Part shown: piece after piece, positions 36,945 to 42,700 of the stretch
How positions within the stretch are numbered: position 1 is the stretch's first letter
Layout: every line of letters starts with the position of its first letter
Assembly (NCBI GenBank): GCA_037783545.1
Contig: JBBELK010000368.1
Coordinates: 620,001 to 684,000, forward strand
Reading direction: 5' to 3'
Origin: Henricia sp. BOLD:AAB3569
Taxonomy: Eukaryota; Echinodermata; Asteroidea; Spinulosida; Echinasteridae
Length of the DNA stretch: 64,000 nucleotides
Notes under the pieces: model-generated
Told to the model about the DNA's origin: nothing
What the model saw: only the letters and a program-made list of their open reading frames with translations
Database searches by the model: none
Program-made: the position numbers and the translations under genes

Positions 36945-37043
36945 ATGACCGTGCGCCCTCAACGTGGAAAAACAGGGCAAGCATCGGCAATTTCTCTGGT
37001 GATTCAGAAGCAAGCTGCCTTGCGTTCTCCCGCCCTCAACAAG
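36945..37043 (+). CDS. Candidate alternative first coding exon of the malic enzyme gene
   Basis: An ATG at 36945 opens 33 codons ending ...LRSPALNK at a GT donor (37044), phase 0. Joined to 40751 this reads [14 protein letters not shown], matching the conserved malic enzyme N-terminal pattern R-x-P-x-LNK-G. The 33 residues contain Lys and Arg but no Asp or Glu, which fits a mitochondrial presequence better than the acidic alternative first exon at 39747. A pyrimidine-rich tract and AG at 36896 suggest an upstream noncoding exon. One candidate ends at 36658 (caag/gtaagt); its own frame does not continue into this exon. Confidence 0.5.
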
Positions 37044-37168
37044 GTATAGACCCCTTGCACCGGCGCCCATGACAGGGGTCAGGTTTTCATATTTGAATGA
37101 TGTGACAATAGATCCACAAATTGTCGACGCACAGTGTGACTGTCCCTTGTCATGGCCGCCCGAAGTAT

Positions 37169-37399
37169 AATGTATCCATAGAGTTATATATAGTAAACTA
37201 GAGTGCCACTCTCAATACTTGATGTGCCGATATGGACGCCGCCATGCGCTATGGGTGCTCAGTGGGCAAAGCTGTGTTGAATGCCAACTTTGCAATCATA
37301 GCGTTAAGCAAACATGGCGCCGCCCGCATCGGCACGGCGGTCCACACACGTGGCTTGAATAGCCAGTGCACACTCTAGTTTACTATATATAACTCTATG
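37169..37399. mobile_element. Inverted-repeat element in the malic enzyme 5' region
   Basis: atagagttatatatagtaaa mirrors tttactatatataactctat perfectly; the ends continue ctagagtg/cactctag. About 230 bp, just downstream of the candidate alternative first exon. Confidence 0.88.
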
Positions 37400-37554
37400 A
37401 ATATATCTTACTATGCCGTGACAAGACTGGTTATCTTACACACTATAGTGTATGTAGGTAGGTGGAATATAAGCGATCTGTAGTGGACAGGGCAGCAGTC
37501 TAGCAAAAGCATTGTCTTTTTGGAGATGGATTATGCGTTGCTTCAATTCTCGTA

Positions 37555-37665
37555 TATAGACTACTAAAGTGTGACGTCAGTCGCAAGGGTAACTGGGTCT
37601 GGACATCTACTGGTCATCTGAAACGTCTATTACTAAAGCGTGGCTCACTGGTAATTTTAGTTAAG
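37555..37665. repeat. gtgacgtcag-type dispersed repeat
   Basis: actactaaagtgtgacgtca, then tctgaaacgtctattact; same family as 9780-10110. It lies directly downstream of the TMEM45-like gene (minus strand). Confidence 0.65.
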
Positions 37666-38469: not shown

Positions 38470-38639
38470 GTTCAGCACAACTCAGTAACCAGTTTTCTCC
38501 ATTTTTTACCTAAGAGCATTTAGCAAAATGCACACGAACTGCGACTATCGTCACTTTTGTATTTCTTATTTGAAGTGCGCACTCGTACTTTAAAGTTGCA
38601 CTGCCCGTGTTTGGGCCGATTTTGGCGTACAATTTTTTT

Positions 38640-39740
38640 TTTTAAAGTTAAATAGGTATTTTTCTAGAATAGAAAAAGTTATCAGCTTTCATTTGGTACC
38701 AAGAACGTAAAAATCCGTCAAGGATTAATGCCAGTCGATTAAAAACAAGAAATGATTAAAAGGCTGGCAGGTCATTTAATCGACAGGGTTATGACGTAAA
38801 TGTACATGTGCGCGTACATGTGTACATTGTACACATACTATGTACATATGAGCGTACGCGCACATGTACAACATGTGAAGCAAAATCAAAATAGACTGCC
38901 GAAGTGAATACGTCATATTTTGTTAGTTGCCTAGGCAATGGCTCTAAGCTAAAAATCACTCAACCGTGTCCAGGGTTTTTTTGCAATGGTACTTTTTCCG
39001 ACGGCCATGATAGTTTAGAGCATATGGCAACGCACGTCACACTTTGGCTGTCTATCGTACAGTAATTAAAAACGAAATGTTATTTTGTGTGTTAGTATTC
39101 TGGAAATGGCGTATAATAAAAATACATCAATTTATATGTTAATCTTAACTGATACCACACCAGGCGACTTATGATCTCGTATTAAAGGCACAGGCTCGTC
39201 AGCAATGCGCGCGTGAGGCCAAATTCATGCCACGAAATACGCAGCTCCATGCCTTTGCTATATACTGTTTGTGTATGTACCTGATGACTAATCCAGCTAT
39301 ACTAGGTCGTAATAATAAAATATTGATAACATCGGAAATGAGCAGAATTTTGCTAAATATGATGGTAAGCCCGTATATATGTGTATTTTCGTGGAAGCAG
39401 TTTAATCGTAAATGTCCCAATGCTTTCAACTGAAAACCTATTTTGTGACAAAACAACGATTTGTTTTACCATTTTCCTGACACAATTGGGTGTGAATTTT
39501 ACTAAACCGCCTTTTTCGATTATCTGGACTTCACAAACATCGCACCGGCACTGCACCCCCTTTTTTCTTCCCAAACTCCTCCCACAACGAGTCACATCGT
39601 CTGACTGTGTGAGGGCGCCCTACACTTAATACGAACGTCTTATACCCAGACTGCGTCTCTCGCTATGATTTGGTTCTTGCTGATGAAGTACCAGACTGCT
39701 GTGTTTATGTTATGGTCGCGCCCACCATTTCGCTTGTGGC
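38640..39740. other. Region upstream of the second malic enzyme first exon
   Basis: 38895-39060 is a copy of the gccatgg/gacgtca repeat family. A tgtacatgtg-rich stretch lies at 38802-38878. The remainder has no recognised coding signal. Confidence 0.5.
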
Positions 39741-39746
39741 TGAACG

Positions 39747-42700
39747 ATGTCTTCGCTCAAAAGCAACGAAAATGACGATTGTGGCCGGGGAAAAGTCTTA
39801 GGCGGTCGACAGGTCGATTCCATGGATCATGAAGAAAAGAATCATGTCCAAGTGGTTTATTCCAGACCTCGGCGTTGGGGTTCAGACATCCTTAAAGACA
39901 ACCGGACAAACAAGGTTTTCGGTTTGGGGTTTGTTTACGTGGGGCGTGTCGTGGGGGAGGAGAAGGGGTGCGGGAGAGAGAGAGAGGCCGGGAGAGAGAT
40001 ACCTGCACTTTTAACCCTAGTCTATGCACAATCCCTATGGATCTTATCTATTAAAAAAATCAGGTTTTTTTTCTGAGAAATTTGTTGACTGAAGAAATGT
40101 TGAGCATGTTGAGCACGCTTGAAACGCAATAAACCCTTTCACAGTTATCGACGCCATGTTGTTCACGGGTCAGTTCGAACACGCGTTGCCGTGTGTGTGC
40201 GCGGATCGTATACGAATGCATTGTTAGGTCACTGTGCATTAGCTACGATCCACGCACGCACACGGCAACGCGTCTTCGAACTGCCCCGTGAACAAGATGG
40301 CGTCGATAACCGTGAAAGGGTTTTATCGGCTAGCATTTGCAAATTTGCTAGTCAGTTTCGTCACAAGCATGCTCATTGGCCGGCCGAGCAATTTGTTGCC
40401 CTCAACTGGCTTTTGTATTGTAAGTCGAATGGTGGCGCTTTTTTCAAGATGGCTGCGGAATGTGAAACTCCCTTAACCCTTTGAATACCAGTGTTAATAT
40501 TGGCACATGTTTATTGTGTACCACATTTATGGGCAAATGTGTGGAAACCTATGAGGTCAGTCGTCGAGTAAACTCGACAATGGTAAGGAAAGGGTTATTA
40601 AGTTACAGACCTTATCTTAAAAAAAACAAATAATCCACATTTTTGTTTCAGAAAACTTGAAGAAAACTTGGTGATCGAATATTGGAATCTTTAAAAAATT
40701 CTTAGCTTGTTTTTGATTTTTAATTGTTGTTTTTTTTCTATTTTTTTTAGGGGACTGCCTTCACGTTACATGAGCGTCAAGCGCTAGGAATCCACGGTTT
40801 ACTACCACCAGTCATAAGCAGTCCTGAAATCCAAGAACAGCGAGCTCTCCGCAATATACGAGGGCAATCCAGTGACTTGGATCGATTCACTCAGCTCATG
40901 GATTTGCAGGTTGATTTGCAAACTCTTTGCACACCATTACTACTCCATTCGTTTGGTTGTAAATGTCAAATTTAGTTATTTGATGATTTTTGTTTTGGGG
41001 GAAAAAGTACTTGACTCTTCAGTTTACAAAAACGAAACTGGCTAAAGATTTTTTAAACGTTTCCTAAGACCACCTTCAAATTTTTTTTCTCCGAAATTTG
41101 AGCATTTCCATCAAATGTGAACTGATGCTTGACAAGTTAAGTACATGTAATTTTAAGGAAAGGTGACAGTAAGTTCTCATCGATTTATCTTGGTTTGTAA
41201 TCAGTGCAAAAATGTGATGATAAAAGTACAAAATTTGATAGGGAAAATGTCAAGATTTCACAAAGAAACATTTTGGGTACGAATTTACAAGTCGGACGTC
41301 ACTTTTTTCTTAAAATTACCTAGCTAAGGTTACATCAGCGCTTACTTTTAGAAGGCTAAAAGTGTTGTTTTGGATGTTTATATTGGGACGTTATCATTTT
41401 CTAGTTACACTTTTAGCCCCATACCAATTTAACCCCATTCGCTACCTTACATTTTGCTGCACGCGGCAAGATGGCCGCCGTACCCCAAACTATAGTTCAC
41501 CATACAGTCAAAATTAAACATTAAAAAACTTATCATGGAATTACCTGGAATCTTCAGAATGTTGTACCGTGGTCCGTTTTACCCGATGATTCTTCTAAAC
41601 AGAAAAAAACTAGTCCAACGTAATTTTTCTTGACATTTTCGAGCACACTCGAGACAACAGCCGTGTTACAGACGAACAAAAGATCATTGTACTGCTAGTG
41701 ACGTCATACAATGAGATGACCACAAGAGGGTGGAATATCTGGGCCCTGACTGATCACCTCTACACACGTGGTAAATGTCGCTGTTGTCTCGAGTGTGCTC
41801 GAAAATGTCAAGAAAAATTACGTTGGACTAGTTTTTTTCTGTTTAGAAGAATCATCGGGTAAAACGGACCACGGTACAACATTCTGAAGATTCCAGGTAA
41901 TTCCATGATAAGTTTTTCAATGTTTAATTTTGACTGTATGTTGAACTATAGTTTGGGGTACGGCGGCCATCTTGCCGCGTGCAGCAAAATGTAAGGTAGC
42001 GAATGGGGTTAAATTGGTATGGGGCTAAAAGTGTAACTAGAAAATGATAACGTCCCAATATAAATGTCCAAAACAACACTTTTAGCCTTCTAAAAGTAAT
42101 CAGCGCTAACCTTATCATGTGGTTATTTGTAAGGAAAATAGTCAACATGGACCCGATATCTCAAAAAATTAAAATCCAAAATGTGTCATTTTCTTCCCGT
42201 GACACACTAATTCGCCTTGGGACTTACCCAAACCTTCAGTCACATCATGGTCGGACGGGTTTACATACGCGGTGCGGATCAAGTGTGCCCACCAGTCTGT
42301 GCACTGGTAGTCTGGTAATCGACCGCGCATTGTGCACGGATAGACTATTTTTATACAAATCACGCGTCGTGATCGGCCAGAAAACTTGATGGGTGATCAC
42401 TTTTCACTGCAATTGTAGGCTGAATCTTCATCGTGGCTTGTTATTTCCCTCAAGGACCTGCGTAGAAGTTATGCCAGGGGGAATTAGTGTACTGTGCCAC
42501 TACCTTAGGTAATGTCCGACTTGTAAATTCTTTCCAAACTCGATAATAAGAACACTTTTATTCTACAAGGAATATTTAAGATCCCAATTATAACAAGGTA
42601 GTCTGCAAAGTCCCAAGGACCTCTTATCGAGGTTAAACTATACTAAATTCTTTCTGACGGATTAAATTTCATTTATCAAACTAACGCCACACATTTGATC

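Follow-up and report, generated by a model that had tools for sequence, protein, structure and literature searches.

How can one gene supply malic enzyme to two cell compartments? In vertebrates the cytosolic and the mitochondrial NADP malic enzymes are encoded by two separate genes (ME1 and ME3, respectively). A different arrangement is suggested by a 64-kb stretch of the genome of the sea star Henricia sp. (C368:620001-684000, hereafter the window; assembly of 740.7 Mb in 2104 contigs), the plus strand of which carries one intact malic enzyme gene of the NADP type (36593-50961). Whereas ME1 and ME3 reach two destinations from two genes, the window gene combines one common body with two candidate 5' ends. 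We consider it fairly likely that this gene, beside which no other malic enzyme gene was detected in the assembly, gives rise from two transcript starts to a mitochondrial and a cytosolic enzyme; the arrangement is real and probably functional. Its coding exons are the following.

36593-36658, plus strand: exon M1, MSHFISARTWGASILRNPTFCK, first coding exon of the putative mitochondrial isoform; donor AAG/gtaagt; phase 0
36897-37043, plus strand: exon M2, TIFVNVAKITSRDFHKMTVRPQRGKTGQASAISLVIQKQAALRSPALNK, with the NK/G junction at its end; donor AAG/gtatag; phase 0
39747-39914, plus strand: exon C1, first coding exon of the putative cytosolic isoform; ends in NRTNK; phase 0 with 40751
40751-40909, plus strand: common exon E2, homologous to malic enzymes in PDB; donor gttgat, also weak
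42709-42909, plus strand: common exon E3, PF00390
43765-43926, plus strand: common exon E4, PF00390
44587-44690, plus strand: common exon E5, PF00390
46556-46763, plus strand: common exon E6, PF03949 in its second half
47433-47546, plus strand: common exon E7, PF03949
48311-48422, plus strand: common exon E8, with K at ME2 position 362
48730-48872, plus strand: common exon E9, PF03949
49832-50005, plus strand: common exon E10, PF03949
50719-50961, plus strand: common exon E11, last coding exon; stop TAG

The ten common exons assemble across GT-AG introns into a single open frame of 1620 nt (540 codons including the stop). M2 and C1 both end precisely at the NK/G junction, from where either can be joined in phase 0 to position 40751, as had been claimed for both ends in an earlier reading of the letters alone (the sequence-only reading); frame assembly likewise bore out its exon end at 39914 (NRTNK). 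That reading had placed the mitochondrial-type first exon at 36945-37043. The end at 37043 (ALNK, phase 0) held, but the start did not, the exon running from 36897 to 37043 and being preceded by a further coding exon at 36593-36658. Two alternative 5' ends leading into one enzyme remain the best reading of the locus, with the correction that the mitochondrial end consists of two exons. A mitochondrial form beginning at the ATG at 36945 was rejected, since the sequence is better explained by the coding exon M1, which lies upstream of it, has a consensus donor and opens with an ATG five codons downstream of an in-frame stop. The acceptor of M2 is pyrimidine-rich (gttttttatacttttttcag). Together, M1 and M2 encode a 71-residue N-terminus in which K and R occur six times each, D once and E not at all, and the predicted protein has 610 residues; the absence of acidic residues asserted earlier applies to 36945-37043 but not to the full 71 residues, which hold one D.

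At the other end, an in-frame TGA (39741-39743) lies two codons upstream of the C1 ATG. C1 is therefore the first coding exon, barring an unseen exon spliced into the few intervening bases. It aligns to the N-termini of malic enzymes in PDB and yields a predicted protein of 595 residues. The description of this exon as acidic fits its first 35 residues (4 D and 3 E; isoelectric point, pI, 5.43) but not all 56 (pI 8.98).

We propose that a transcript from a promoter at 36.4-36.6 kb would be spliced from M1 through M2 to E2, yielding a 610-residue precursor whose basic N-terminus would serve as its mitochondrial presequence. If transcription instead began shortly before 39747, C1 would be joined to E2, and the product would be a 595-residue enzyme that, lacking a presequence, would stay in the cytosol. 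The charges of the two N-termini agree with these putative destinations (12 K/R and one D/E in the 71 residues of M1 and M2; seven D/E in the first 35 of C1). Both products would keep the NK/G junction of the mature enzyme. What we infer from the sequence is that there are two promoters, that both ends occur in RNA, that the products go to two destinations and that G-runs, described below, affect the C1 donor. The CpG ratio is raised at and just upstream of M1 (36380-36679; top 5.4% of 300-bp windows).

To what extent do the exon ends stand out from chance? With a profile of bacterial malic enzyme N-termini (48 left after a redundancy filter from the best 80 of 534 loci), the three top-scoring scan windows on the plus strand of the 64 kb were the ends of C1 (15.84), M2 (13.57) and M1 (5.63). 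Among the 3514 open scan windows ending at GT on both strands, C1 ranked first, M2 second and M1 fourth, rank 3 being taken by a minus-strand scan window at 24588 (11.22). When 100 random 64-kb sequences were scanned (one strand each), the score of C1 was reached in none, that of M2 in one and that of M1 in 13. On these ranks and counts C1 and M2 are each well supported singly, and M1 is moderately supported by the bacterial profile. A profile of five animal N-termini, applied to 1760 plus-strand scan windows, again placed C1 first (16.75), followed by M1 (8.0), an unrelated scan window at 12703 (7.41) and M2 (7.34); no score above 12.44 occurred among 60 random 64-kb sequences, compared with 16.75 for C1. 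The last 48 nt of C1 and M2 are identical at 15 positions, which is chance level (1045 of 5000 shuffles as good). Despite this, the frame is open and the motif present in both, which speaks for exons that are being maintained and not for a recent, decaying duplicate. As a side observation, the malic enzymes of the 80 bacterial loci (the best of 534, from several phyla) are 58-67% identical to the window enzyme over the first 174 common residues. In viral contigs, four stretches fitted a pattern, none of them a relative.

The same scans bear on a variant with three first exons, in which M1 also joins E2 directly and M2 is a cassette exon, since the end of M1 (ARTWGASILRNPTFCK) resembles the junction motif. 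This end is third on the plus strand by the bacterial profile, where its 5.63 exceeds the 3.63 of the human ME2 N-terminus, and second of 1760 by the animal profile; moreover, it matches the end of C1 at 21 of 48 bases (14 of 5000 shuffles as good). Its bacterial-profile score is, however, the one reached by 13 of the 100 random sequences, and direct joining of M1 to E2 would presumably leave scant room for a cleavable presequence. We therefore regard this variant as improbable and retain two 5' ends, the mitochondrial one formed by M1 and M2.

The malic enzyme gene was also found on the minus strand of a second contig (C705). Alignment of the window with 30 kb of this contig gave 22 blocks longer than 250 bp, 20 of them at 89-99% identity and two at ≈82%, separated by large insertions or deletions. 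C705 is probably the other haplotype, a view based on the second DUF716 locus of the assembly, which also occurs as a near-identical pair (C254 and C95); it may instead reflect a recent duplication. M1 is identical on both copies (0 differences in 66 bases), M2 differs at one of 147 (L to V) and C1 at one of 168 (synonymous), compared with 38 of 1620 in the common coding part (31 synonymous, 7 not) and 281 of 7432 in the non-coding portion of the aligned blocks. Pooled, M1, M2 and C1 differ significantly less than all aligned non-coding sequence (Fisher p = 7e-5), and the same was found for the M exons against local non-coding sequence (1 of 213 versus 15 of 444; p = 0.015). The donors gtaagt (M1), gtatag (M2) and gttttc (C1) are unchanged on C705. 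In a profile search of the entire 740.7-Mb assembly at E = 0.001, which works exon by exon, PF03949 was detected at nine places and PF00390 at six, all of them belonging to the window gene on C368 or to C705; no other malic enzyme locus exceeded the threshold. We hold two 5' ends to be the best reading because both assembled copies retain the exons that carry the motif and no second locus exceeds the threshold.

Several observations weigh against two functional ends. Over its first 30 residues, the M1-M2 N-terminus has an unexceptional hydrophobic moment, matched by 1121 of 2000 shuffles, and codon usage is not coding-like in M1 (null fraction 0.83) and supports coding just marginally in M2 (0.048) and C1 (0.049). 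At C1 (39615-39914) no CpG promoter signal was detected, 27% of 300-bp windows being as high. Compared with its own flanks, C1 taken alone is not significantly conserved (p = 0.078), and the 145 bases preceding it differ as little on C705 as C1 itself (1 of 145). The C1 donor is equalled or surpassed by 38.6% of 3721 plus-strand GTs, as scored with a donor matrix that leaves GT/GC itself out. The best PDB match of C1 plus E2 is 1llq, an Ascaris enzyme that we take to be mitochondrial, so that the motif of C1 alone is no marker of a cytosolic form. Finally, a first look at the assembly gave 11 candidates for PF03949 and 8 for PF00390, two in each search lying under the threshold.

The unremarkable hydrophobic moment and the codon usage of M1, together with the better homology of C1, would suit an account in which the C1 transcript is the only true start and M1 and M2 are exons by chance. 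Set against the consensus donor gtaagt of M1, the pyrimidine-rich acceptor of M2, the phase 0 of both, the second rank of the M2 end among 3514 scan windows and the low divergence of the two exons from C705, this account appears very improbable.

What, then, of the weak donor of C1? The sequence-only reading had singled out gttttc as weak and in need of explanation, and it is indeed the poorest donor of the gene; the G-runs behind it offer a candidate explanation.

39915-39920, plus strand: C1 donor gttttc, score -3.89, lowest of the gene's 12 donors
39921-39989, plus strand: G-run cluster, candidate intronic splicing enhancer, five runs of GGG or longer

Within 75 bases after the C1 donor there are five G-runs in the window and seven on C705, whereas each of the gene's remaining 11 donors is followed by one at most; at least five G-runs follow 0.5% of the window's 3718 plus-strand GTs. 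The donor of E2, a constitutive exon, is poor as well (gttgat, -1.77). Three phase-0 donors further downstream were considered for C1 and rejected, namely TAC/gtgggg after 39938 (-1.22), GTC/gtgggg after 39950 (-2.85) and the GC donor GAG/gccggg after 39986 (-0.21). All outscore gttttc, yet each adds residues past the conserved NK. It is plausible that the G-run cluster compensates for the weak C1 donor, which would then be recognised with the help of an enhancer of the hnRNP H/F type.

Precedents for such an effect point in more than one direction. In TP53, the weak donor of exon 6 is sustained by five G-runs located within 85 nt, and it is no longer used once at least four of them are deleted (PMC12062376). 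Replacement of TP53 intron 3 by a G-run-free sequence is described there as causing little skipping of exon 4 (PMC12062376), and in the abstract of another study hnRNP H/F suppresses an exon (PMC10514471). Given the mild result for intron 3 and the exon suppression by hnRNP H/F, the effect of G-runs is context-dependent.

Alternatively, C1 may be a relic first exon with a dead donor, the M1-M2 transcript alone being made and the enzyme being exclusively mitochondrial. The bottom rank of gttttc among the 12 donors, the many GTs that score as well or better and the non-significant conservation of C1 over its flanks all agree with this view. Still, we judge it unlikely: C1 is open, with a stop just before its ATG and the best motif of the 3514 scan windows; its sole difference on C705 is synonymous; the constitutive E2 also makes do with a weak donor; and the G-run cluster lies behind C1 only. 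We thus continue to favour two functional ends, with C1 in use.

To which malic enzyme does the common body belong? Both PF00390 (265.6 bits) and PF03949 (321 bits) were detected in the window gene above their curated cut-offs. The top scores of a PDB search (one chain per enzyme) were obtained for 1gq2 (806.6 bits), 2aw5 (783.3), 8e76 (780.5), 1efk (723.2) and 1llq (698.7), which we take to be pigeon ME1, human ME1, ME3, human ME2 and the Ascaris enzyme, respectively. The window gene is identical to ME2 at six of six positions (Y112, R165, K183, E255, D256 and D279) that presumably make up the catalytic and metal-site residues. At ME2 positions 346, 347 and 362, which we assume to have a role in NADP choice, the window gene has S, K and K, as do ME1 and ME3, whereas ME2 has K, Y and Q; E59 of ME2 is S in the window gene. 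In the common part, the gene is 62.7-65.3% identical to vertebrate ME1 (cytosolic) and ME3 (mitochondrial), with which it thus shares the same residues at three coenzyme-site positions; vertebrate ME2, a mitochondrial NAD(P) malic enzyme of the same family, is 57.8% identical. In a tree of 19 rows (five animal sequences and 14 of the 80 bacterial loci), ME1 and ME3 formed a clade (100/99) that leaves out the window gene, and the fork between the window gene and ME2 was not settled with five animal rows. Because the ME1/ME3 clade excludes it, the window gene may resemble the state before the ME1/ME3 split, albeit on as few as five animal sequences.

A more far-reaching proposal, which we offer tentatively and consider rather doubtful, is that the window gene has kept the pre-duplication state of animal NADP malic enzymes, with one gene, two first exons and two compartments. 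ME1 and ME3 would then have arisen by duplication and loss of the opposite first exon (subfunctionalisation), and the cytosolic form in Henricia would be gated by a weak, G-run-dependent donor. If that dependence is true, the split between compartments could be adjusted by splicing factors. If both ends are used, promoter choice would let a single detectable malic enzyme gene provide two compartments with NADPH and pyruvate, and the locus would provide a testable model for the separation of the vertebrate cytosolic and mitochondrial NADP malic enzyme genes. For annotation, a pipeline that chooses one isoform would place the enzyme in one compartment only.

Alternative first exons serving two compartments are an arrangement already known from GLRX2. 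As outlined in the relevant passages of PMC7503856, human GLRX2 has alternative first exons and a common body, one exon carrying a mitochondrial targeting sequence and the other leading to nuclear and cytosolic forms. Like GLRX2, the window gene has, by its anatomy, a single body to which either of two 5' coding ends would join in phase; unlike it, the window gene encodes an unrelated protein, and its putative mitochondrial part is split over two exons and known from sequence alone. Distinct transcripts are one of several routes to dual localisation, according to the corresponding section of a review (PMC11653698). Among the matches listed from the open-licence literature, no report of alternative first exons for malic enzyme was found.

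Between the two 5' ends, the opposite strand carries a further open reading frame.

37738-38469, minus strand: TMEM45-like open reading frame (DUF716, PF04819), intronless, 243 residues, in the intron between M2 and C1

The whole antisense TMEM45-like gene that had been announced here proved to be a real open frame, matching PF04819 with 58.6 bits (over the cut-off; profile positions 4-85 of 138), but not clearly a whole gene. Compared with a 289-residue paralogue on C254 and C95, its 243 residues align up to residue 219 (214 in the paralogue); it is without the C-terminal part of the paralogue and does not qualify as full length. On C705 (67738-67959) merely 210 of the 732 bp align, a one-base insertion lies near the start and the rest is replaced. 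Open on one copy and frameshifted and mostly replaced on the other, the frame looks like a presence/absence polymorphism. Since it is broken on C705, the malic enzyme arrangement probably does not depend on it; a regulatory role was rejected because it is broken and mostly absent there, and the frame is, judging by the two copies, an incidental bystander.

Other features were noted in the introns of the malic enzyme gene and elsewhere in the window. The intron after E2 holds two long inverted arms (≈41340-41660 and ≈41760-42100, within 41310-42110) that by eye resemble a foldback element. A tRNA-Thr-like sequence detected by ARAGORN in another stretch of malic enzyme intron (43279-43351) may be a tRNA-derived short repeat, and in the E5-E6 intron a 134-bp unit is repeated in tandem five times at 97% (45033-45698). 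Downstream of the gene lies a tubulin open frame on the plus strand (61172-62182; PF00091, PF03953), the first exon of which may be marked by a TATA-like stretch at about 55605 and by an ATG with gtaaga behind it at about 55770, both noted by eye. Two tracts, one of 415 bases and almost pure C (5694-6108), the other of 165 bases and G-rich (6713-6878), are either real homopolymers or assembly artefacts. On the minus strand, Pfam matches indicated a trypsin-like open frame (31311-32600) and a reverse transcriptase fragment with an ALKBH8_N-like tail (15571-16356).

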